From assembly GCF_020149915.1 (NCBI RefSeq), contig NZ_CP083760.1, positions 930,001 to 994,000 of the forward strand: DNA of 64,000 bases, in the 5' to 3' direction. Below are positions 20,540-31,050 of the stretch, in pieces (within the stretch, counting starts at the first letter, position 1; every line of letters begins with the position of its first letter). The stretch is from Candidatus Sulfidibacterium hydrothermale (GTDB lineage Bacteria; Bacteroidota; Bacteroidia; Bacteroidales; F082). Under the pieces are notes generated by a model. It worked only from the letters and a program-made list of their open reading frames with translations. It was not told the origin of the DNA and ran no database searches. The translations under genes were made by a program, and so were the position numbers.

Positions 20540-21799
20540 TTATCTGCCGCAGTGTTCTCCACTGCTGTTAATAATGTCGTCGAATTCTTCCTGGGAGATG
20601 TAAGCCGGAGTGTAGGTAGCTCCATTAGCTGTCAGTTGCGATACGAAAGCCCGCATGTGATTGCGTGAACCGCAGGTGAGGCGGCTAAATGTTGCCAGGA
20701 TAGCTTCGTTGGTTGTTTTTGTACTGAATTCTTCCAGGTCATAGATATCAAGATCTTCGATGGTGGCACCTACGGTTAAGGCATCTACCAGTGATGTTGA
20801 ACCTTTTTCAACTAAGGTTTGGTAAAGATCCTGCAAGGTACTGTTGCTAAACTCACCCGGTTCGGGTAAAGCCGGATCCGGAATGTTGTAAGCTTCGAGA
20901 AGGCTCAAAATAGCATCCATGTGTGTTTGTTCAGCATTTGAGATGTTGTCGAATACCTGAGCACCCCATTTTTCGTACAATGCATCATAAACATCACGGG
21001 CCAGTTTTTCTTCTTCACGCATTTGCAGTAACATGACGGAATCTTCAGGAGTCAGCGGAGCATAAACCAAGGTGTCAGAGGAGTAGTAATTGGAGCTGTC
21101 GCAGTTATAGGAAGATGAGGAAGAAAAAGAAGAAGAAAATGAGAGCCCGCAACGTTCATGTGCACTGTTAATGATGTCATCAAACTCTGTTTGGGAAATA
21201 TATGATGGGGTATAAGTTTCGCCTTCTGCTGCCAGTTGCGATACGAAAGCCCGCATGTGGTTACGTGAGCCACAGGTCAAAAACTGAAATACTTCCTGAA
21301 TCAGTTCGTTATCGGTTTCCTGGACAAATTTTTCCAGATCGTAAATATCGAGATCTTCAATGGTAGCACCTACTTTCAACGCATCAACCAATGAGGTGCT
21401 GCCCTGATTAACAAGCGTAGTGTACAGGTCCTGTAATTCAGGATTGGAGAATTGACCAGGTTCTGGCAAAGCAGGATCAGGAATACCTAATGTATCTAAC
21501 AACATTTTAACGGCATCCATGTGTTTTTGTTCAGCATTGGAAATATTATCAAAGACTTTAGCTCCCCATTTTTCATACAAAGCATCATATACGTCTCGTG
21601 CCAGTTTTTCTTCTTCACGCATTTGCAGAAGCATGGTGGAGTCGTCGCTGGTAACAACTTCACTCTTTTCAGTAAGAGTGGAAAGGTCAACGCTGTCAGA
21701 AGTTTTGTCGCAGCTTGTGATAAATACGCTACTACCGATAAACAGTATACCGGTGAATAAGAGGGAGAATACCTTTTTCATTTTCTGTAACTTTTTCAT
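20540..21799 (-). CDS. Lipoprotein with two tandem DUF2202 domains
   Basis: 419 residues. A signal peptide ends in a lipobox (FITSC), so it is probably membrane-anchored. Two DUF2202 domains follow (about 50-215 and 250-415), nearly duplicated: each has MLLQMREEEKLARDVYDALYEKWGA, FDNISNAEQ.HMDA, GATIEDLDIYDLE, LTCGSRNHMRAFVSQL and EFDDIIN. The Glu/His pattern is that of a ferritin-like four-helix fold able to bind metal; DUF2202 proteins have no established function. A Ser-rich linker (SSSFSSSSS) joins the units. A 19-mer containing a response-regulator-type direct repeat lies 87-103 bp upstream (21886-21902). A second, single-domain DUF2202 lipoprotein gene follows at 22325-22966. See the regulon finding. 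Confidence 0.9.
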   Translation of the reverse strand: MKKLQKMKKVFSLLFTGILFIGSSVFITSCDKTSDSVDLSTLTEKSEVVTSDDSTMLLQMREEEKLARDVYDALYEKWGAKVFDNISNAEQKHMDAVKMLLDTLGIPDPALPEPGQFSNPELQDLYTTLVNQGSTSLVDALKVGATIEDLDIYDLEKFVQETDNELIQEVFQFLTCGSRNHMRAFVSQLAAEGETYTPSYISQTEFDDIINSAHERCGLSFSSSFSSSSSYNCDSSNYYSSDTLVYAPLTPEDSVMLLQMREEEKLARDVYDALYEKWGAQVFDNISNAEQTHMDAILSLLEAYNIPDPALPEPGEFSNSTLQDLYQTLVEKGSTSLVDALTVGATIEDLDIYDLEEFSTKTTNEAILATFSRLTCGSRNHMRAFVSQLTANGATYTPAYISQEEFDDIINSSGEHCGR

Positions 21800-21883
21800 G
21801 ATTTTTTATTTTTAATGATTGAATAAATTTTTCTTCTGCCCCCTGTATGTCAAAAAGGCTGCCAAAAATTTTTTCGGGCCGGG

Positions 21884-21902
21884 TTTTTAAGAAAATCTTA
21901 AG
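21884..21902. promoter_or_regulatory. Putative response-regulator box, site 1
   Basis: TTTTTAAGAAAATCTTAAG. The two half-sites TTAAG start at 21887 and 21898, an 11-bp period as bound by tandem OmpR/PhoB-family dimers. The identical 19-mer recurs at 25459-25477. It lies upstream of the tandem DUF2202 gene. Confidence 0.6.
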
Positions 21903-22272
21903 AAAACAACCGGTTGTTTGAATGGGGTTTCTTGCGGCTGTTTTTTAGAAAACAAAGAAAATTTCCATGTTTATAATTGGTTGTTTTTCAATATTTTATT
22001 GTGTAATTTTTCTGACCGTAATAAAAGTGTTGGCACGAGGCCTGGCGGGTGTTTTAAAGCCGGAAAAATTTTTTTAGAAAAAATTTCTTTATTTTTTCTT
22101 TCCCCGGATTGGGTTTTTTATTTCTGCGTTGCTGGTCGAAGAATACGACCGTTTGGGCGAATTGTTTGGAGAAAGATTAATATCCTTTATCTTTTTGGGA
22201 GGCGTCTGAAACAAAAATCAGATAAAGATGTTTTGAAATGCCCGGATAATGTAGAATGAAATGGGAAAAACG

Positions 22273-22303
22273 AAAAAAGCTTCCCGGAGAGGGAAGCTTT
22301 TTT
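22273..22303. terminator. Bidirectional intrinsic terminator
   Basis: AAAAAAGCTTCCC and GGGAAGCTTTTTT are perfectly complementary over 13 bp around a GGAGA loop, with T-tracts on both strands. It lies 22 bp beyond the stop of the second DUF2202 gene. Confidence 0.9.
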
Positions 22304-22324
22304 GAAGGTTGATGTTGTATCAGG

Positions 22325-22966
22325 TTATTGCAGTCCGCATTGCTCGCTGGGACTGTTAATGATATCGTCAAATTCGGTTTGTGAAATGTACACCGGAGTA
22401 TAGGTGATGTCGTAAACCTGTAATTGGGAAACAAAAGAACGCATATGGTTACGTGAGCCACAGGTCAGAAACTGGAAAGTATTTAGAATATCCTGATTGG
22501 TGGTTTTACTCATATACTCTTCCAGGTCGTAGATGTCTAAGTCTTCAATGGTTGCTCCCACCAACAAGCTGTTGGTGAGGGAACTGTCGCCTTTGGCTAC
22601 CAGACTGGTATATAATGCCTGTAAATCCGGATTGTTAAACTTGCCGGGTTCGCTGCTGGCCGGATCGGGAATGCCATATTTGTTTAAAAGTTTTAGTACT
22701 TCATCCATGTGGGTTTGCTCACTGCGGGCAATATTGGTAAAAACCCGTAATCCCCATTTGTCGTATAAGGCCGTGTATACATCGCGGGCCAGCTTTTCTT
22801 CTTCACGCATGTGAACTACCATGGTAGAATCCTCTGCGTTGAGTTTAGGGGTTGGGTTGTCGGAAGAATCATCACATCCTGAAAACAAGAAGGTGTTTCC
22901 TATAATTAAGGCAAGCAGGATGGAAGGTATTATGCTCCACAACTTTGAATACTTTAAACTTTTCAT
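22325..22966 (-). CDS. Single-domain DUF2202 lipoprotein
   Basis: 213 residues. The hydrophobic signal ends in a lipobox (LFSGC), followed by an Asp/Ser/Pro linker and one DUF2202 domain (about 50-210): MREEEKLARDVYTALYDKWG, NIARSEQTHMDEV, GATIEDLDIYDLEEYM, LTCGSRNHMRSF and EFDDIIN. It is closest to the repeats of the neighbouring tandem protein, so the two genes are likely paralogues. The divergent region to the response-regulator gene contains a TTTAAG-N5-TTTAAG repeat (23044-23060), 78 bp before this ATG. Probable envelope metal-binding or stress role (inference). Confidence 0.9.
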   Translation of the reverse strand: MKSLKYSKLWSIIPSILLALIIGNTFLFSGCDDSSDNPTPKLNAEDSTMVVHMREEEKLARDVYTALYDKWGLRVFTNIARSEQTHMDEVLKLLNKYGIPDPASSEPGKFNNPDLQALYTSLVAKGDSSLTNSLLVGATIEDLDIYDLEEYMSKTTNQDILNTFQFLTCGSRNHMRSFVSQLQVYDITYTPVYISQTEFDDIINSPSEQCGLQ

Positions 22967-23042
22967 GACTTTATTGTTTTAACGTTGTTATTATGGTGCT
23001 AAAATATTTTTAATTTCCATCTCCCGGTGAATGTTGGTTGTA

Positions 23043-23060
23043 TTTTAAGCTGATTTTAAG
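23043..23060. promoter_or_regulatory. Putative response-regulator box, site 2
   Basis: TTTTAAG at 23043-23049 and again at 23054-23060, 11-bp period. It lies in the divergent region between the DUF2202 lipoprotein gene (start 22966) and the response-regulator gene (start 23149), so it could serve both, including autoregulation. Confidence 0.55.
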
Positions 23061-23148
23061 ATAAAAACGTGTTTTATTTGATAAAAATACTGTTTTTTTG
23101 CATTTTAGATAAAAGTACATAAAATATTATAAAGGCCGTAAAAAAATT

Positions 23149-23838
23149 GTGAAAAAAATATTGATTATAGAAGACGAACCCGGTATCAGCACCTTTTTAA
23201 AAGAAGGGCTGGAAGAAGAAGGTTATCAGATTGAAATTGCTGAAGAAGGGGAGTCCGGACTGAAAAAAGCATTGTCCGGAAAATTTGATTTGATTCTGAT
23301 GGACTGGATGCTTCCCGGATTGAGTGGCCTGGAAATTACAAATAAGCTTCGCGAAACAGATGTGGTTACCCCGATCATTTTTTTAACGGCTAAAGATACG
23401 GTGCAGGATACCATTCTTGGGCTTCGTTCCGGTGCCAACGATTACCTGAAAAAGCCGTTTAGCTTCGAAGAACTTCTTGAACGTATTCATGTTCAGTTCA
23501 GAAAACCTCATGCGAAAACTACGGTATTTCGCCATGGGCCTTTGACCATTGACGATGCTAAACATGAAGTGAAATGGTTTGATAAAACTGTTTCGTTAAC
23601 GCAAAAAGAATATGACCTTTTACTTTTCCTGATTAAGAACAAAAACCGGATATGTACCCGTAAAGAAATCCTGAAGAAAGTATGGGACATTCATTTTGAA
23701 TACAGTTCGGGGGTTATTGATGTGTATATTAACTCGCTGCGGAAAAAGCTTCCTGCTGAAAACAACGGAGAACTGATTGAAACGGTCAGAGGGATTGGTT
23801 ATATCATTAAAGATAAAGAAGATGAAAGCGGGATTTAA
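23149..23838 (+). CDS. OmpR/PhoB-family response regulator
   Basis: 229 residues. A receiver domain (1-120) carries the acidic pair E8-D9, phospho-acceptor D52 (LILMDWMLPGLSG), the conserved Thr and Lys (FLTAK and LKKPF). A C-terminal winged helix (about 130-225) shows LTQKEYDLLLFLIKNKNRICTRKEIL and the wing VRGIGYII. The start is GTG at 23149. Its reading frame overlaps the histidine kinase start (ATG 23822) by 17 bp, so translation is coupled. Its likely targets are the three 11-bp direct repeats at 21886, 23044 and 25461. It resembles metal-responsive regulators of the CusR/BasR kind by neighbourhood. Confidence 0.93.
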   Translation: MKKILIIEDEPGISTFLKEGLEEEGYQIEIAEEGESGLKKALSGKFDLILMDWMLPGLSGLEITNKLRETDVVTPIIFLTAKDTVQDTILGLRSGANDYLKKPFSFEELLERIHVQFRKPHAKTTVFRHGPLTIDDAKHEVKWFDKTVSLTQKEYDLLLFLIKNKNRICTRKEILKKVWDIHFEYSSGVIDVYINSLRKKLPAENNGELIETVRGIGYIIKDKEDESGI

Positions 23839-25213
23839 GGAGCGACTGGCTTTTTTGTACCTGATCAGTACAGCAGGAATTATTTCCATCTTGTTTGTGG
23901 TGATTACTTTTAAGGTGAAAAAAAGTGTTTTTCAGCATCTTGACCATGATATATACATAGAGGCTGTAAAACATTCAAACGATATTTATATCCATAAAGG
24001 AAAGCTTCGCTTTAACCGAAGTGCCTGGTTGGAACGGGAACATCAAATGGTTCAGGTGAATCCGGTTTTTGTTGAAGCTGTTGATAGTAACGGGGAAGTC
24101 ATTGCCCGTTCTCCTAATTTAAAAGAAGACTCCCTCCGGTTTTTACCGGAATATGTCGGGAAATACCGGAACACGACCCTGGCTAACGGGCCGGTTCGTC
24201 AATATCAGTATGCTATTCGGAAAAACGGAAAGACGTATGGATATTTGCTGGTCGCCATGTCACTCGACAGTGCACAAATGGTGCTGAAAAAATTGAAAAC
24301 CACCTTGCTTATTGCTTTTCCGGTGGTGCTGATCATATTGTTTTTCTGGGCGCGTTTTATTGCCGGGAAAAGCATTCGTCCGGTGATGGCCATTATTGAA
24401 ACGTCAGATAAAATTACCCGGACCAACCTGCATCAGCGGGTGCCGTTGCCGGGAAACAAGGATGAATTGTATTTGTTATCCACTACCATCAACCGCTTGC
24501 TCGATCGTATTGAGCAGGCTATGGAGCGTGAAAAACAATTTACTTCTGATGCGGCTCATGAGTTAAAAACCCCGCTTCAGGTGATGAAAGGTAATATGGA
24601 AATTCTGATCCGGAAACCGCGAAATCCTGAAGAATACCAAAGCAAAATTAAAAGTTGTTTGCACGAAATCAATCGCATGGCGCATCTGGTAGACCAGTTG
24701 TTGTTGCTGGCCCGTTTTGAAAGTCAGCGTGAAGCGCTGGATATCCGTGAAGTACCGTTGGATGAACTTGTTGAACAGGTTATTCAGAAAAAATTATGGC
24801 AAATTGAAGAGAAAAAAATCAACCTGAAAGTTGATATTCAGGAATTGGTAACCGTGAAAAGTGATCCGTATCTTTTGCACATCATTTTTGAAAATGTGTT
24901 GTCCAATGCCATAAAATATACCCCTGAAAAGGGTACGGTTACCGTGAATATGGGGAAAGAAAATCATAAGCCTTTCTTGAGTATTCAGGATTCAGGACCG
25001 GGAATCAAACCGGAAGATCTGGATAAAATTTTCGATCGCTTTTACCGTTCCGATCCCTTAAAACATCCGCATATCAAAGGAACCGGGTTGGGACTTTCCA
25101 TTGTAAAACGGTTGAGCGAAATCCTGCATCTTGAATTTGTTCTGAAAAGTAATCCGGGAGAAGGTTTGTTGGTTTACATTGCTTTTCCGGAGAAAGAACC
25201 GGTAGAAGCTTAA
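23822..25213 (+). CDS. Sensor histidine kinase of the metal/stress two-component system
   Basis: 463 residues with two membrane helices (about 9-30 and 160-180) flanking a periplasmic sensor of about 130 residues. A HAMP linker follows, then the phospho-acceptor H246 in AAHELKTPLQVMKG, the N box ENVLSNAIKYTP, G1 DSGPGI, F box FDRFYR and G2 GTGLGLSIV. An earlier in-frame start would overlap the regulator by much more; ATG 23822 gives a normal membrane-proximal start. The sensor domain sequence (LDHDIYIEAVKHSNDIYIHKG) is of no family I can name, so the stimulus is inferred from the adjacent RND pump genes. Confidence 0.93.
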   Translation: MKAGFKERLAFLYLISTAGIISILFVVITFKVKKSVFQHLDHDIYIEAVKHSNDIYIHKGKLRFNRSAWLEREHQMVQVNPVFVEAVDSNGEVIARSPNLKEDSLRFLPEYVGKYRNTTLANGPVRQYQYAIRKNGKTYGYLLVAMSLDSAQMVLKKLKTTLLIAFPVVLIILFFWARFIAGKSIRPVMAIIETSDKITRTNLHQRVPLPGNKDELYLLSTTINRLLDRIEQAMEREKQFTSDAAHELKTPLQVMKGNMEILIRKPRNPEEYQSKIKSCLHEINRMAHLVDQLLLLARFESQREALDIREVPLDELVEQVIQKKLWQIEEKKINLKVDIQELVTVKSDPYLLHIIFENVLSNAIKYTPEKGTVTVNMGKENHKPFLSIQDSGPGIKPEDLDKIFDRFYRSDPLKHPHIKGTGLGLSIVKRLSEILHLEFVLKSNPGEGLLVYIAFPEKEPVEA

Positions 25214-25458
25214 GGGTAAATCCGGTTGTAAAACGGACTGTTGGTTTCTGGCGGATGAAGTTGCCCGACGGTTTGTGGCTTTCTTTTTTGAACTTGTACA
25301 ATTCCGGCACATCATCGTTTTTCCATTCTGGTATTTTCTGGGTTAGTGAATTTGTTATTTTCTGTGTAATCCGGTTTTTCGTTGTTTTTCGGTAATTTTT
25401 ACAAGTAAACAAAAACAACTCAACGGCTCTTAATTTCTATCTTTTTGATACATAATTA

Positions 25459-25477
25459 TTTTTAAGAAAATCTTAAG
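25459..25477. promoter_or_regulatory. Putative response-regulator box, site 3
   Basis: TTTTTAAGAAAATCTTAAG, identical to site 1. Half-sites are at 25462 and 25473. The box is centred about 45 bp before the -7 element, with no good -33 TTTG, the geometry expected for activation. Confidence 0.6.
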
Positions 25478-25509: not shown

Positions 25510-25517
25510 TACTTTTG
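25510..25517 (+). promoter_or_regulatory. -7 element of the RND efflux operon
   Basis: TACTTTTG. It places the transcription start near 25524 and rules out a TTG at 25515 as start codon, leaving the ATG at 25542. Confidence 0.6.
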
Positions 25518-25541: not shown

Positions 25542-28500
25542 ATGTTAGAAAAAATTATTCAATTCAGCTTGAAAAACAAGCTGATCGTCATTCTCTTTAC
25601 GCTGACGGTCGTAGGATTTGGTTTATTTGCCATTTCTCAGATTCCCATCGGGGCAGTTCCCGATATTACTAATAACCAGGTGCAGGTGATTACTACCTCG
25701 CGAGATCTGGCCACCCAGGATGTGGAACAATTCATTACTTATCCCATTGAGCTGGAACTATCGAATGTTCCGGGGGTAAAAGAAATTCGTTCGGTATCCA
25801 AATTTGGATTGTCGGTGGTTACCGTGGTATTTGACGATGCCATGGGAACTTATCTGCCGCGGCTGCTGATCAGCGAGAAGTTAAAAAATGCAGAGGAAAA
25901 AATTCCGAAAAAGTTTGGAACGCCTCAATTAGGCCCCATTACCACCGGATTGGGTGAGATTTATCAGTATATTCTGGATACTAAGCCGGGATATGATACA
26001 CTGTATTCGGTGCAGGAATTGCGTACGATCCAGGACTGGATTGTTAAACGGCAATTAGCCGGGATTCCCGGAGTGGTGGAAATCAATACCTGGGGCGGTT
26101 ATCTGAAACAATATGAAGTAGCGGTAGATCCGCAAAAACTCCGGGCGATGAATACTACCATTGTGGAAGTGTTTGATGCCCTGGAAAAAAACAATGCCAT
26201 TGCCGGCGGAAGTTATATTGAAAAAGGAGCCCAGAGTTATTTTATCCGTGCAGACGGTTTGGCCAAATCATTAAAAGATATTGGCAATATTGTGGTAAAA
26301 AATGTAAACGGTGTACCAGTGCTGATTAAAGATGTGGCACAGGTCAAACTGGGACATGCCAATCGTTTCGGCGCCATTACCGGTAACGGACAGGGCGAGA
26401 AGGTGATGGGACAAATCATGATGCTGAAAGGAGCCAATTCGAAAAAGGTAATCGAAGCGGTAAAAAAACGGATTGCCAAAGTGCAAAAGAATTTGCCCGA
26501 AGGCGTGTACATTAATCCTTTTCTGGAAAGAAGCGAATTGGTAAACAAAACAACGTTTACTGTAGCCGAAAACCTGATTCTGGGATTTATTATTGTTCTG
26601 GGTGTGGTTATCCTGTTGTTGGGTAACCTTCGGTCGGGTTTGCTGATTGCATCGGTAATTCCTTTGGCTTTGCTGTTTACGCTTTCGTTGATGTATATCT
26701 TTGGTGTGGATGCCAACCTGATGAGTCTGGGTGCCATCGACTTCGGGATTATTATTGACGGATCAGTAATTATTGTGGAGTTTATCAGCCTTCAAATTCT
26801 GCGAAAGTGGGATACGCTGAAAATGATGCCCAAAGAGAACCGGCAAAAGGAGATAGATGAGATAACCTTTAAAAGTACCAACAAAATGATGCACTCGGCA
26901 GTGTTTGGCCAGCTCATTATTTTGATTGTGTTTATCCCGGTGTTGACACTTACCGGGGTGGAAGGGAAGATGTTCCGGCCTATGGCATTGACGTTTTCTT
27001 TTGCCTTGCTCGGCGCCATGCTGTTTGGGTTTACTTATGTTCCGGTGGCGGCTTCTCTTTTCCTGAAACCGGCCAAAAACCCGAAAAACTTCTCCTTCCG
27101 AATGATTGAATGGTTAAAAGGATTGTATATTCCCAGCATCAAATTTGCCTTAAAACACAAAGCGCTTGTGTTATCGGTTTCGGCAGTTTTGTTGATTATC
27201 TCGGTTATCACTTTTGGCCGGATGGGGGGTGAGTTTGTTCCGACACTGGATGAAGGCGACTTTGTGATACAACCGATCCTGAAAACAGGAACCTCATTGA
27301 GTAAAACCATTGAAACAACGACGCGCATTGAACGTATTTTGCTGAAACAGTTTCCGAATGAGGTTGATCAGGTGGTCAGCCGTATCGGAGCAGCTGAGGT
27401 GCCTACTGATCCCATGTCGATGGAAGATGCGGATATTATTATTAAGCTGAAAGACAAAAAGAACTGGACAAAAGCCCATACGAAGGACGAATTGGCCAAT
27501 GAGTTTAAAAAAGCACTCGAAGTGATTCCCGGTGTGGGATATGAATTTACCCAGCCGATTGAAATGCGCTTTAATGAATTGATTACCGGGGTGCGGGCCG
27601 ACATTGCCGTGAAAATTTACGGAGAAGATCTGGCCATCCTGAACCAGAAAGCCAAAGAAGCCCGTAATCTGATTGAAGGGATTCCCGGAGCTGCTGATAT
27701 CAGCGTGGAAAAAGTAGAAGGTCTGCCCCAGATCAGCATTAAATACGACCGGCAAAAACTGGCTAAATTCGGAATGAATGTGGACGAACTGGATAAAATT
27801 GTTTCACTGGCTTTTGCCGGTGTGAAAGCCGGTGTGATTTTTACCGGAGAAAAGAATTTTGACCTGGTAGTCCGTTATCAAAATGATTTTAAAAAGAATA
27901 TCGAAAATGTAAAAGACCTGCGTGTAAAACTGCCTTCCGGAAACAGTATTCCGTTTACCGAATTGGCAGACATTACTTATACCGAAGGTCCGGCAAAAAT
28001 ATCGCGTGACAATACCAAACGGAGAATTGTAGTGGGAATTAATGTCCGTGACCGTGACCTGGAGTCGGTAGTGAAAGATATTCAGAAAAAACTGGGAGCT
28101 AACTTGCATTTGCCTTCAGGATATTACATCGAATATGGCGGTCAGTTTGAGAATCTGCGTACGGCAAAAAAACGGCTTACTATTGCCATTCCGGTGGCTT
28201 TATTGCTCATCTTCATTCTGTTGCACTTTGCGTTTCAGTCTATCAAAGAGGCCATTATGGTTTATACAGCCATTCCGCTGTCGGCTGTCGGAGGCGTTTT
28301 CCTGCTGTGGTTGCGTGATATGCCGTTCAGCATTTCTGCCGGTGTAGGTTTTATTGCCTTGTTTGGTATTGCGGTGCTCAACGGAATTGTACTCATTGAG
28401 CATTATAAGAGTCTGAAGGCACAAGGAATGACGAATGTGGATGAACGAATTATCAAAGGTTCGTCTGAACGGTTACGCCCGGTATTGTTGACAGCTGCTG

Positions 28501-29888
28501 CTGCCGCACTTGGATTCTTCCCCATGGCTTTTTCTCATAATGTGGGAGCCGAAGTACAACGTCCTTTGGCTACAGTGGTCATCGGCGGATTGTTTACTGC
28601 CACCCTGCTGACCATGATTGTCTTGCCTGTTCTCTATTCTATTTTTGATAAACCGTTAAAAATCAAAAAAATGAAAAAACCTGCTGGTACGGTTATGCTG
28701 ATTATTCTGATGCTTGGAATCTTTTACCCGTCAAGCGGATACAGCCAGTCACAACCGGAAGGATTAAAACTTTCGGCCGCGATTGACAGTGCGCTGATTC
28801 ATAATCAAAATTTTCAGTCGGCCGTGAGTATGACCAAAGAACGGAAGGCGATGATTGGCACTGCCGTTGATTTTGGTAAAACGGATATTTATTATTCGGT
28901 AGATGAAAACAATCAGGCAGAACAAGGGTTGCCCTTGCATGTGATGGGCGTTCAGCAGACCTTTGCCTATCCGGGAGTTTATTCGGCCCGGAAAAAGGCA
29001 CTGAAGAAATCTTACGAAGCCGGACAGGCTGCTTTGAATATTTCCAAAAACAGATTGAAAAAAGAAGTGTCTTCGGTTTATTATCTGATTGTTTATTATC
29101 AGAATAAGCTGGAAGCCTACCGCTTTTTGGACAGCCTTTATACCCGTTTTTCGACAGCAGCCGGAAAAAAACTGAAAGCCGGCGAAGGAAATTATCTGGA
29201 GAAATTAACGGCAATGTCTAAAAAACAGGAAATCCATACCCGGCGGCTTCAGATCGAAAAAGAACTGGAGATCGCTTACCAGGAATTGTATAAACTGATG
29301 GGTGTTCAGCCCTCGGCCCGGATTACCATTACCAAAATGGAGCCGTTGCCCTACCGCGATCAGAGTCTTAGCACCAATCCGTTTTTGCTGAAATTGCAAA
29401 AGGAACGTGAAGCGACCTTGTATTTGCATAAAACAGAAAACCGGAAACTGGTTCCGGACCTGAAACTGGAATATTTTACGGGAAAAACCACGGTAGCTGA
29501 TGCCAAATGGTATCAGGGCTTTACGGTGGGGTTGGCTATCCCGTTGTGGTTTGGTCCGCAAAAATCGCGGGCCAAAGCTACCGGTTTAATGTACCAGGCC
29601 GTACAGCAAAAAGAGGTCTATCAGCAAAAAGCGTTGGAAACCAAAAAGAAACAGCTAAAGCAAAAGCTGGAAAAATACCTGGAAGCCATTCGTTATTATC
29701 AGGAAAACGGAAAAAAACTGTCGCGGACGCTGCTGCGTACAGCCGACAAGAGTTTTATGGCCGGCGAAATCAATTATTTTCAGTTTATTCAGAGTATGAA
29801 AGCCGCTACCGATATCCGTTTGAATTATCTGGATAACCTGCAACAATACAATCAAACCGTTTTAGAACTTCAATACATCGAATTATAA
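25542..29888 (+). CDS. CusA/CzcA-family RND transporter fused to a TolC-like outer membrane factor
   Basis: 1448 residues. Residues 1 to about 1030 are a complete heavy-metal RND pump: MLEKIIQFSLKNKLIVIL (helix 1), helix-4 signature DFGIIIDGSVIIVE with proton-relay D400, porter-domain segments, and 12 transmembrane helices ending VLPVLYSIFDKP. From residue 1044 a second N-terminus appears (MKKPAGTVMLIILMLGIF...SGYSQ), a signal-peptide-like segment, then about 390 residues with TolC-family helices (AVQQKEVYQ, NQTVLELQ). Such CusA-OMF fusions are known in Bacteroidota. Metals are not decided by sequence. A CusB-like adaptor follows 10 bp later. The response-regulator box and promoter lie directly upstream. 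Confidence 0.9.
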   Translation: MLEKIIQFSLKNKLIVILFTLTVVGFGLFAISQIPIGAVPDITNNQVQVITTSRDLATQDVEQFITYPIELELSNVPGVKEIRSVSKFGLSVVTVVFDDAMGTYLPRLLISEKLKNAEEKIPKKFGTPQLGPITTGLGEIYQYILDTKPGYDTLYSVQELRTIQDWIVKRQLAGIPGVVEINTWGGYLKQYEVAVDPQKLRAMNTTIVEVFDALEKNNAIAGGSYIEKGAQSYFIRADGLAKSLKDIGNIVVKNVNGVPVLIKDVAQVKLGHANRFGAITGNGQGEKVMGQIMMLKGANSKKVIEAVKKRIAKVQKNLPEGVYINPFLERSELVNKTTFTVAENLILGFIIVLGVVILLLGNLRSGLLIASVIPLALLFTLSLMYIFGVDANLMSLGAIDFGIIIDGSVIIVEFISLQILRKWDTLKMMPKENRQKEIDEITFKSTNKMMHSAVFGQLIILIVFIPVLTLTGVEGKMFRPMALTFSFALLGAMLFGFTYVPVAASLFLKPAKNPKNFSFRMIEWLKGLYIPSIKFALKHKALVLSVSAVLLIISVITFGRMGGEFVPTLDEGDFVIQPILKTGTSLSKTIETTTRIERILLKQFPNEVDQVVSRIGAAEVPTDPMSMEDADIIIKLKDKKNWTKAHTKDELANEFKKALEVIPGVGYEFTQPIEMRFNELITGVRADIAVKIYGEDLAILNQKAKEARNLIEGIPGAADISVEKVEGLPQISIKYDRQKLAKFGMNVDELDKIVSLAFAGVKAGVIFTGEKNFDLVVRYQNDFKKNIENVKDLRVKLPSGNSIPFTELADITYTEGPAKISRDNTKRRIVVGINVRDRDLESVVKDIQKKLGANLHLPSGYYIEYGGQFENLRTAKKRLTIAIPVALLLIFILLHFAFQSIKEAIMVYTAIPLSAVGGVFLLWLRDMPFSISAGVGFIALFGIAVLNGIVLIEHYKSLKAQGMTNVDERIIKGSSERLRPVLLTAAAAALGFFPMAFSHNVGAEVQRPLATVVIGGLFTATLLTMIVLPVLYSIFDKPLKIKKMKKPAGTVMLIILMLGIFYPSSGYSQSQPEGLKLSAAIDSALIHNQNFQSAVSMTKERKAMIGTAVDFGKTDIYYSVDENNQAEQGLPLHVMGVQQTFAYPGVYSARKKALKKSYEAGQAALNISKNRLKKEVSSVYYLIVYYQNKLEAYRFLDSLYTRFSTAAGKKLKAGEGNYLEKLTAMSKKQEIHTRRLQIEKELEIAYQELYKLMGVQPSARITITKMEPLPYRDQSLSTNPFLLKLQKEREATLYLHKTENRKLVPDLKLEYFTGKTTVADAKWYQGFTVGLAIPLWFGPQKSRAKATGLMYQAVQQKEVYQQKALETKKKQLKQKLEKYLEAIRYYQENGKKLSRTLLRTADKSFMAGEINYFQFIQSMKAATDIRLNYLDNLQQYNQTVLELQYIEL

Positions 29889-29898
29889 TATCATCATC

Positions 29899-31050
29899 AT
29901 GAAAAAAAGAAATATTTTAATCATAGCTGTTCTTGCCATTTTTACCCTGGCTTCCTGTGGTTCTTCGTCAACAGAAAAAGAAGCTGCACAAAAACAGACA
30001 GCAGAAAAAACAGAGAAAAAAAATCCGGATCAGTTTCTGATTACCGACAAGCAACTGAAAGATTCCGGAATGGCACTGGCCAAAGTAAAAACCGATACTT
30101 TTCATTACCAGGTTTCGGCTCAGGGCTCGTTGGAAGTTCCTCCGTACAACAAAGCAAAGATCAGTACGTTTATGCCCGGAAAAGTGGAAGATTTACATCT
30201 TCTGGCCGGCGATCATGTTAAAAAAGGAGAGCGGTTGATGGTGATCAATAATCCGGATTTTCTGATAATGCAACAGAATTATCTGAAAGCAAAAGAAGAT
30301 TTGGTTTATTTGAAAAAAGAATACCAGCGTCAGCAATCACTGGCGGCAGACAGCATTACTTCACAAAAAAAGTTGCAGAAAAGCCGGAACAGCTATTTGA
30401 ATACGCTGGCTAACTACCAGACTTTAAAACAGCAATTAAAATTATTGCATTTTGACCTGAAACAGATTGAACAAGGGCATTTTTCAGCTTCAGCACCGTT
30501 GTATGCGCCCATAAGCGGTTATGTTACCATGCTGAATGTAACCCGAGGCTCGCATGTGAACCCGTCGGATGTAATCATGGAAATTATTGACGATTCGCAT
30601 ATTCATCTTGAATTGAAAGTTTTTGAAAAAGATGTTTTAAAGCTGAAACCGGGGCAGAAGATCGAATTTATGATTCCGGATATGGGTAATCAGACTTTTT
30701 GGGGATATGTGCATCTTATCGGGAAAAAAATTGACCCGGAAAGCCGGACGGTTGTAGTACACGGCCATTTAACCGGCAAGCATCCGGCTTTTATTACCGG
30801 AATGTATGTGGAAGCCAAAATTTTGACAGGGAGTTTTACGGGATTATCGGTTCCGACTACGGCCATTATCAAACAGGAAGAAAATTATTTTATCCTGAAA
30901 CTGTTGAAAAAGGATGATAAAGGATATCATTTTGAGAAAGTTCAGGTGATGCCCGGACTGGTAAAAGGAAAAGAAACTCAGATTAAAGCCAATTCGATGA
31001 TCAAATCCGGGGATACCATTCTTGGCAAAGGCGCTTTCTTCCTTTTGTAA
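29899..31050 (+). CDS. CusB/HlyD-family RND adaptor lipoprotein
   Basis: 383 residues. Lipoprotein signal with lipobox LASC (about residues 17-20), a Lys/Glu-rich linker, then the membrane fusion fold: beta-barrel/lipoyl half (PGKVEDLHLLAGDHVKKGERLMVI), helical hairpin (about 125-185), lipoyl second half (APLYAPISGYVTMLNVTRGSHV), barrel (FEKDVLKLKPGQKIEFMI) and a membrane-proximal domain. It connects the inner membrane pump to the outer membrane portion of the preceding fusion. No His/Met-rich metal-binding N-terminal stretch as in E. coli CusB is present. Last gene of the operon, ended by the terminator at 31070. Confidence 0.92.
   Translation: MKKRNILIIAVLAIFTLASCGSSSTEKEAAQKQTAEKTEKKNPDQFLITDKQLKDSGMALAKVKTDTFHYQVSAQGSLEVPPYNKAKISTFMPGKVEDLHLLAGDHVKKGERLMVINNPDFLIMQQNYLKAKEDLVYLKKEYQRQQSLAADSITSQKKLQKSRNSYLNTLANYQTLKQQLKLLHFDLKQIEQGHFSASAPLYAPISGYVTMLNVTRGSHVNPSDVIMEIIDDSHIHLELKVFEKDVLKLKPGQKIEFMIPDMGNQTFWGYVHLIGKKIDPESRTVVVHGHLTGKHPAFITGMYVEAKILTGSFTGLSVPTTAIIKQEENYFILKLLKKDDKGYHFEKVQVMPGLVKGKETQIKANSMIKSGDTILGKGAFFLL

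Follow-up and report, generated by a model that had tools for sequence, protein, structure and literature searches.

What connects two genes of the DUF2202 family, a two-component system and a metal efflux pump that stand side by side, each behind a copy of the same short direct repeat? The question is raised by a locus of Candidatus Sulfidibacterium hydrothermale, contained in the 64,000-nucleotide stretch analysed here (contig NZ_CP083760.1, positions 930,001 to 994,000; hereafter the window, to which coordinates refer unless another label is given). A first-pass annotation had proposed that three copies of YTTAAG-N5-YTTAAG (the box) define a regulon comprising these genes. All together, our analysis confirms the observation and supports the earlier interpretation in part. 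We consider it likely that the locus is a self-regulated two-component metal-stress switch, acting on a divalent-cation efflux pump of the resistance-nodulation-division (RND) family and, within the genus, on DUF2202 proteins.

The box, its regulator and the promoter geometry

Three perfect boxes were found in the window at the positions first assigned to them, all within 3.6 kb, and no other perfect one is present. Box 1 (21884-21902, minus strand) maps 87 bp upstream of the tandem DUF2202 gene, which is the sole gene start found nearby, and scores 12/12 on the plus strand and 11/12 in the direction of that gene. Box 2 (23044-23060, plus strand) is placed between the divergent genes for the second DUF2202 protein and for the response regulator (RR), and box 3 (25459-25477, plus strand) upstream of the pump operon. 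Boxes 1 and 3 are, as had been reported, one identical 19-mer. CTTAAG being self-reverse-complementary, both also score 11/12 on the minus strand; an inverted-repeat reading based on this near-palindromy was dropped, since site 2 and the relatives favour direct repeats.

The genome-wide scan that had been suggested as a check returned four perfect sites in the single contig of 3,266,086 bases, all on the forward strand and three of them in the window; the reversed control pattern gave eight perfect matches in the same genome. Chance alone would put three out of four sites inside 3.6 kb with a probability of about 1.5e-5, for a motif that was picked post hoc. A search tolerating up to two mismatches shows no excess of the motif in the window (17 occurrences versus 25.6 expected), and the signal therefore resides in the perfect sites and in their conservation. 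At least one perfect site occurs in 100 of 173 family genomes, so that a lone site means little; clusters do matter. Conservation is the independent test of the boxes, and it is strong for boxes 2 and 3.

The fourth perfect genomic site (G000:C1:1119197-1119213, or L064:5198-5214), outside the window, lies between norB, coding for nitric oxide reductase, and a gene for an AhpC-type peroxiredoxin, about 113 bp upstream of the latter. Its score toward ahpC is no more than 10/12, TATTTTTG being 36 bp away, and none of the further perfect sites in two congeners, G147 and G148 (L235, L242, L244), is at ahpC; the site was not counted in the regulon, of which it may still be part.

Conservation was assessed at 40 RR loci, namely 4 from the genus, 17 from the family (E<=1e-60), 8 from a phylum sample of 395 genomes (all at E<=1e-80) and 11 new hits from a class sample of 295 genomes (E<=1e-70). 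A box scoring at least 11/12 was found upstream of the RR or of the RND gene at 35/40 loci, 30 of the 40 having a perfect one. Within roughly 700 bp, it precedes the RR at 32/40 loci (25 perfect) and, among the 27 loci with an RND gene, precedes that gene at 17 (15 perfect). The 30 control RR loci yielded none that reached 11/12, and among 800 shuffles, which preserve single-base composition only, 27 had one. The controls were chosen as top NF053854 (PhoB) hits from 40 genomes; because only four of these genomes pass the PhoB cut-off, the control RRs have to be read as OmpR-family paralogues, not as proven PhoB.

The spacing of the half-sites is equally restricted. The first 29 RR loci (519 kb) contain 43 perfect N5 pairs and the other 11 (215 kb) contain 13; the total of 56 includes non-independent cases, since some arrays overlap and some of the species are related. 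In the same two sets, N4 spacing was found 0 and 0 times, N6 1 and 0 times, and N16 9 and 5 times, the last being consistent with runs of three half-sites; a reversed half-site at N5 was found twice in the first 29 loci. By the same count, no perfect N5 pair is present in 18 family DUF2202 loci without the RR (283 kb) or in the 30 control RR loci (106 kb), two loci (L043 and L044, from G009 and G150) belonging to neither comparison set. In a tree of 75 sequences, the 40 box-associated RRs form one clade (99/97), separate from 31 control RRs, and E. coli CusR, BasR and QseB adjoin this clade on long branches that the tree program flagged as unsure. The box is therefore absent at the control loci and present with one RR clade across the sampled Bacteroidota, as expected of a regulon that includes the metal pump.

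The distance from the box to the promoter is also constrained. Taking TAnnTTTG as the Bacteroidota -7 element, we found 52 pairs with no more than 90 bp between this element and the end of a box scoring 11/12 or better, a count in which arrays contribute several pairs and related species recur, so that it does not represent 52 independent events. The distance is 31 bp in 2 pairs, 32 bp in 19, 33 bp in 10, 21 bp in 5, 22 bp in 3, 43 bp in 3, 54 bp in 2 and another value in the remaining 8; thus 44 of the 52 fall at 21-22, 31-33, 43 or 54 bp, in steps of 11 bp, at which the regulator would always occupy one side of the DNA with respect to the polymerase. In the window, the -7 element of the pump operon (TACTTTTG, 25510-25517, plus strand) lies 32 bp after box 3, a distance previously given as 45 bp, and a -7-like element of the RR gene (TTTTTTTG, 23093-23100, plus strand), not an exact TAnnTTTG, lies 32 bp from box 2. 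The composite pattern TTAAG-N6-TTAAG-N20-34-TAnnTTTG has a single match in the window's genome, the pump promoter; in 38 genomes it has 57 matches, in 27 of them, versus 20 for the reversed control. The proposal of tandem sites one helical turn apart, with their OmpR/PhoB-family regulator encoded between them, is borne out to the extent that the box follows the RR clade and is phased to the -7 element.

A PmrA-like box beside a divalent-type pump

The RR (23149-23838, plus strand) consists of a receiver domain (PF00072, 8.8e-30) and a winged-helix Trans_reg_C domain (PF00486, 6.2e-25) and belongs to the OmpR/PhoB family. It is followed by the Pfam-identified sensor histidine kinase (23822-25213, plus strand). 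The pump operon codes for a CzcA/ZneA-type permease of the heavy-metal-efflux (HME) RND group, fused to an outer-membrane efflux domain (25542-29888, plus strand; PF00873 and PF02321; TIGR00914 at 1144.3 bits, above the cut-off of 701.45), and for the periplasmic adaptor, or membrane fusion protein, of the pump (29899-31050, plus strand; TIGR01730 at 136.1 bits, cut-off 94.9).

The box fits the PmrA box, YTTAAK-N5-YTTAAK, an identity that had been missed by the first-pass annotation, as had the solved relative of DUF2202 described below. The PmrA consensus is given as (C/T)TTAA(G/T)-N5-(C/T)TTAA(G/T) in the relevant portions of three papers (PMC10729948; PMC3973317; PMC10927774). The RR itself is not PmrA, an identity that we rejected on its score of 134.2 bits with the PmrA equivalog model NF007928, whose cut-off is 330. 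The DNA contacts listed for PmrA in the pertinent part of PMC3973317 are Thr187, Asn188, Glu191, Val192, His193 and His195; at these positions the window RR has Ser, Gly, Asp, Val, Tyr and Asn, only Val192 being identical. Of these contacts, Thr187, Asn188, His193 and His195 are base-contacting, and none of the four is kept in the window RR. Arg198 of PmrA is retained. Throughout the alignment of the 40 RRs, the positions of His193 and His195 are occupied by Tyr or Phe (once Asn) and by Asn, respectively. With the PmrA/BasR-PmrB (BasS) system of enterobacteria, the locus thus shares the box and the head-to-tail sites for an OmpR/PhoB-family regulator; unlike in the PmrA regulon, the box-linked genes are those of a metal pump and of ferritin-like proteins, and the recognition helix is partly different.

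The other likeness is to the CzcRS/CusRS-type systems, with which the locus has in common an adjoining HME-RND operon and the best NCBIfam hits of the RR (TIGR01387, CztR/SilR/CopR) and of the kinase (TIGR01386, CztS/SilS/CopS). Unlike those systems, it falls under both curated cut-offs, and it has a YTTAAG direct repeat, a permease fused to an outer-membrane domain and a ferritin-like partner gene. Judged from the sequences, the system resembles PmrA in its DNA site and CzcRS in its pump. Among the matches listed in open-licence full text, we found no paper on the box or on the regulator in Bacteroidota.

With respect to the metal, the closest solved relative of the permease is ZneA (PDB 4k0e). 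Transmembrane helix 4 (TMH4) of the window pump carries SLGAIDFGIIIDGSVIIVE (DFGIIIDG), near the ZneA sequence (SLGAIDFGIIVDGAIVVME) and unlike CusA, and DFG(I/L)I(I/V)DG is kept in 27/27 pumps at the RR loci; the window pump differs from the CzcA-like ZneA by its C-terminal outer-membrane efflux fusion. The methionine triad of CusA (Met573, Met623 and Met672) aligns with Q, D and E, which speaks against a place in the Cu/Ag branch. In addition, a Glu-His pair is present in the sensor region of the kinase in 40/40 relatives, window included. Because of the TMH4 signature, the loss of the CusA methionines and the Glu-His pair, the pump probably favours a divalent cation, i.e. Zn, Co, Cd, Ni or Fe. 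The portion of PMC10434189 concerned with metal pumps describes CusA/CzcA pumps of Bacteroides thetaiotaomicron that shift in both directions, and does not concern the regulator considered here.

The DUF2202 genes

Both DUF2202 genes are on the minus strand. The tandem gene (20540-21799) matches PF09968 in two stretches (6.4e-119, 393.9 bits), corresponding to two ferritin-like domains, and its halves are linked by a serine-rich stretch. The second gene, DUF2202b (22325-22966), divergent from the RR, matches PF09968 at 1.4e-58 and 197.7 bits; the gathering cut-off is 22, and both genes are above it. Both products have a signal- or lipobox-like N-terminus, judged by eye as were all signal peptides in this work, which would be consistent with export as lipoproteins. 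Two-domain DUF2202 frames also occur in the congener G150 and in genus g16 (G168 and G170-G172, as well as G169 with an internal stop).

The description of DUF2202 as uncharacterised holds for its function, and literature searches for DUF2202 and for MJ0754 found no paper; for its fold it does not hold, as the family has a solved ferritin-like relative, MJ0754 (PDB 3q4n and 3q4r; 6.8e-55 for DUF2202b). An AlphaFold2 model of DUF2202b (pLDDT 85.4) has 3q4r as best match (E 1e-14), and the MJ0754 structures share 54-55% identity with the predicted structure at TMt 0.95-0.97 (0.97 for 3q4r). The title of the 3q4r entry includes 'with Zn2+'. The next, weak matches are bacterioferritins and aldehyde-deformylating oxygenases (E about 0.01-0.1). 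E55, E56, E57, K58, Y64, E83 and H86 are invariant in 61/61 DUF2202 domains, and E141, D144, D147 and H174 in 60/60. On the basis of the model, DUF2202 is thus predicted to have a ferritin-like fold, a helical bundle with conserved Glu and ExxH positions. The window proteins differ from MJ0754 in the N-terminus just mentioned, in the tandem copy and in the adjacent two-component system with its box.

Within the genus, a close RR (66-100% identity, E<=1.1e-95) is present in 4 of 12 genomes, those of the window, G147, G148 and G149; G147 and G148 have an additional paralogue at 51% identity. In all four, a DUF2202 gene and the RR gene diverge, separated by a stretch with a perfect box, and a perfect box precedes the RND gene in G147 and G148, the two congeners whose contigs reach that far (the G149 contig stops within the kinase gene). 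Seven of the 12 genomes have neither RR nor DUF2202. The remaining one, G150, has no RR hit; its DUF2202 gene (49% identity) codes for two domains, is truncated where the contig stops and has an upstream site of only 10/12. Given five carriers in 12 genomes, the chance of finding DUF2202 in 4/4 RR genomes is 0.01 when kinship is ignored. A scan of genome contigs gave six DUF2202 loci, of which L005 and L006 correspond to G149 and G148 and were counted once.

Read toward DUF2202, the box scores 11/12 in four genus promoters and 10/12 at the divergent copy of the window. Four of the five promoters have a -7-like element at 14-15 bp: AATTTTTG at 15 bp before the window tandem gene (21863-21870, minus strand; weak), TATTTTGG at 15 bp in G148, TGAGTTTG at 14 bp in G149 and TAATTTTG at 14 bp in G147, only the last being an exact TAnnTTTG. 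No such element was found at 14-15 bp from the box on the side of the divergent window copy. The best evidence for DUF2202 as a target comes from box 1, where the tandem gene offers the only gene start nearby. There is also a weak link that is independent of the box, namely the neighbourhood of HME-RND genes (best hit TIGR00914), which adjoin DUF2202 in 4 of 54 order and phylum loci (G664, G638, G330, G516) and occur in 0/60 comparison loci of about 3 kb.

Interpretation, alternatives and the wider family

The model that we favour may be described as follows. The kinase would sense a metal, or damage caused by it, outside the inner membrane, and the phosphorylated RR would dimerise and bind YTTAAG-N5-YTTAAG head to tail. 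Where about 21 or 32 bp separate the box from the following -7 element, it would activate its own operon and the divalent-cation RND operon; in the genus, the same boxes would also control the ferritin-like DUF2202 lipoproteins, which may bind or oxidise metal outside the cytoplasm as the pump removes it. In terms of sequence, the signature of a regulon is strong for the pump and for self-regulation, and good for DUF2202 as a member in one genus, with a sign of control that may be either.

Several observations weigh against this model. The RR and the kinase score below the NCBIfam heavy-metal cut-offs (206.9 bits versus 279.2 for TIGR01387, and 238.3 versus 292.55 for TIGR01386). Five of the 40 RR loci have no box at the RR or RND gene: L124, L125 and L128, from one genus, which have no RND gene within the stretch, and L147 and L279, which have perfect boxes elsewhere in the locus. 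The dependence among the N5 pairs mentioned above acts in the same direction. The tandem DUF2202 gene is not adjacent to the system in G147-G149 and the G150 site reaches only 10/12; therefore, of the boxes whose conservation in relatives had been proposed as a check, 2 and 3 passed it and box 1 has no demonstrated conservation of its own. Outside the genus, 0/73 DUF2202 loci (19 family, 29 order and 25 phylum loci, L057 and L100 with less than 300 bp upstream) have a promoter-position box that reaches 11/12; this set covers a part of the order and phylum hits and excludes three weak phylum hits without a blastp match. Membership of DUF2202 in the regulon accordingly stands within the genus, and a general DUF2202 regulon was dropped. 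Adjacency of HME-RND genes is likewise 0/19 in the other DUF2202 loci of the family. Finally, the DUF2202 boxes lie 14-15 bp, and not 21 or 32 bp, before a -7-like element that is exact in one of five promoters; this position is out of phase with the 21/32/43 series, and DUF2202 may therefore be either activated from over the -33 region or repressed.

The second of these outcomes, in which the phosphorylated RR would repress DUF2202 by covering the -33 region and activate the pump, is in our estimate unlikely, yet a serious contender. It draws on the same out-of-phase spacing at four of the five genus promoters, of which TAATTTTG alone is an exact element, the other three being looser matches; moreover, some activators of the OmpR/PhoB family bind over the -35 region too, so that the position of a box does not by itself give the sign. 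Another arrangement, which we hold to be rather unlikely, is that the RR controls only itself and the pump, box 2 serving the RR promoter and DUF2202b being a bystander in a shared intergenic region. This would agree with the 32 bp between box 2 and the RR -7-like element, the common distance in the clade, with the missing -7-like element on the DUF2202b side and with the lack of boxes at DUF2202 outside the genus, G150 included at 10/12. Against it stand box 1, which repeats the 19-mer of the pump box and has the tandem DUF2202 gene as the sole gene start found, the divergent DUF2202 gene in 4/4 RR-bearing genus genomes and the -7-like elements on the DUF2202 side in three congeners.

A copper or silver signal in a CusRS-like system, metals that had been among those suggested at the outset, appears improbable. 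The best hits of the RR and the kinase are the heavy-metal models named above, and E. coli CusR stands, with BasR and QseB, beside the RR clade; however, the three CusA methionine ligands are all replaced, the TMH4 signature is ZneA-like and kept in every pump compared, and the kinase retains its Glu-His pair. Copper/silver specificity was dropped on the TMH4 signature and the missing methionines. That the boxes are nothing but chance AT-rich repeats is scarcely credible. The absence of enrichment at two mismatches and the frequency of lone perfect sites in the family would fit such a view, but the spacing peak at N5 only, the empty control loci, the phasing to the -7 element and the restriction to one RR clade all speak against it; so does conservation for boxes 2 and 3, and box 1, lacking conservation of its own, is a 19-base copy of box 3.

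Under the favoured model of a metal-stress switch, the locus names, for a metal-response system of Bacteroidota, the regulator and its candidate binding site, together with the geometry of its promoters and a list of targets. It also provides a testable hypothesis for DUF2202, as a ferritin-like protein outside the cytoplasm that is co-controlled with metal efflux, and apparently a case of one DNA box shared between PmrA and another regulator, which differs from it in part of its recognition residues.

A related branch extends the picture. Seven paralogous RR loci (L134-L139 and L287; 48-52% identity) have no RND pump within the stretches fetched. In six of them (L134-L137, L139 and L287), a box of at least 11/12 precedes a rubrerythrin gene (PF02915) located after the kinase gene, the product having a signal-like N-terminus by eye; a box also precedes the gene for a small membrane protein ahead of the RR (DUF2231, Pfam-tested in L134 and judged by eye in the others). 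The order at L134:7859-11219 is box, DUF2231-like gene, RR, histidine kinase, box, rubrerythrin. The branch thus has the same box, a related RR and a ferritin-like target in common with the window, and differs in the ferritin-like family and in the lack of RND genes in the fetched stretches. A literature search on DUF2231 with two-component systems found no paper. In PMC10434189, a rubrerythrin gene of Porphyromonas gingivalis drops 46-fold under low iron, which makes iron a reasonable candidate metal for this branch, subject to the two-way shifts of CusA/CzcA pumps noted above from the same source.

Other box-linked genes code for a catalase (L142) and for a Rieske protein with ApbE nearby (L145). 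In one class-level family, a box lies between the gene for a sulfatase-family membrane protein and, where this was seen, an oppositely oriented thioredoxin-like/ApbE/DUF4266/DUF3570 group (assigned by Pfam in L281 and L147 and by eye in L144, L285 and L288); an enzyme of the alkaline-phosphatase superfamily is a PmrA target in enterobacteria too. Some boxed genes have no evident metal or redox function. Taken together, the box-linked genes suggest a theme of extracytoplasmic metal and redox handling. As a tentative extension, which we would put at somewhat below even, this may be a Bacteroidota-wide system for envelope metal and redox stress, in which one RR clade, using a PmrA-like box in 11-bp phase, has repeatedly recruited extracytoplasmic ferritin-like di-metal proteins (DUF2202, rubrerythrin) beside RND efflux, so that a redox-relevant metal, possibly iron, would be oxidised or sequestered in the periplasm and the rest exported.

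The RRs of the genus (window: 23149-23838) cluster with those of the class-level family f7 (96/93) and apart from the others in their family, a possible sign of horizontal transfer; carriage of the RR on plasmids was considered and set aside, as tblastn gave no match at 1e-60 among 72,556 records. An array of four half-sites lies between the divergent RND and RR genes at L142:9416-9454. In genus g12, where no RR hit was obtained at 1e-60, TTTAAGYGAGA units were found (G102:C167, G103:C61, G104:C41 and G109:C26), repeated with an 11-bp period in three out of four, and these are possibly the array of another regulator. In five f7 genomes (L312, L315, G256:C3, G240:C7 and G429:C45), a TTAAG pair is conserved with TATTTTTG at 24 bp, a spacing outside the 21/32 series. 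At the two loci read, L312 and L315, the gene downstream of the pair codes for a c-type haem motif, as judged by eye.

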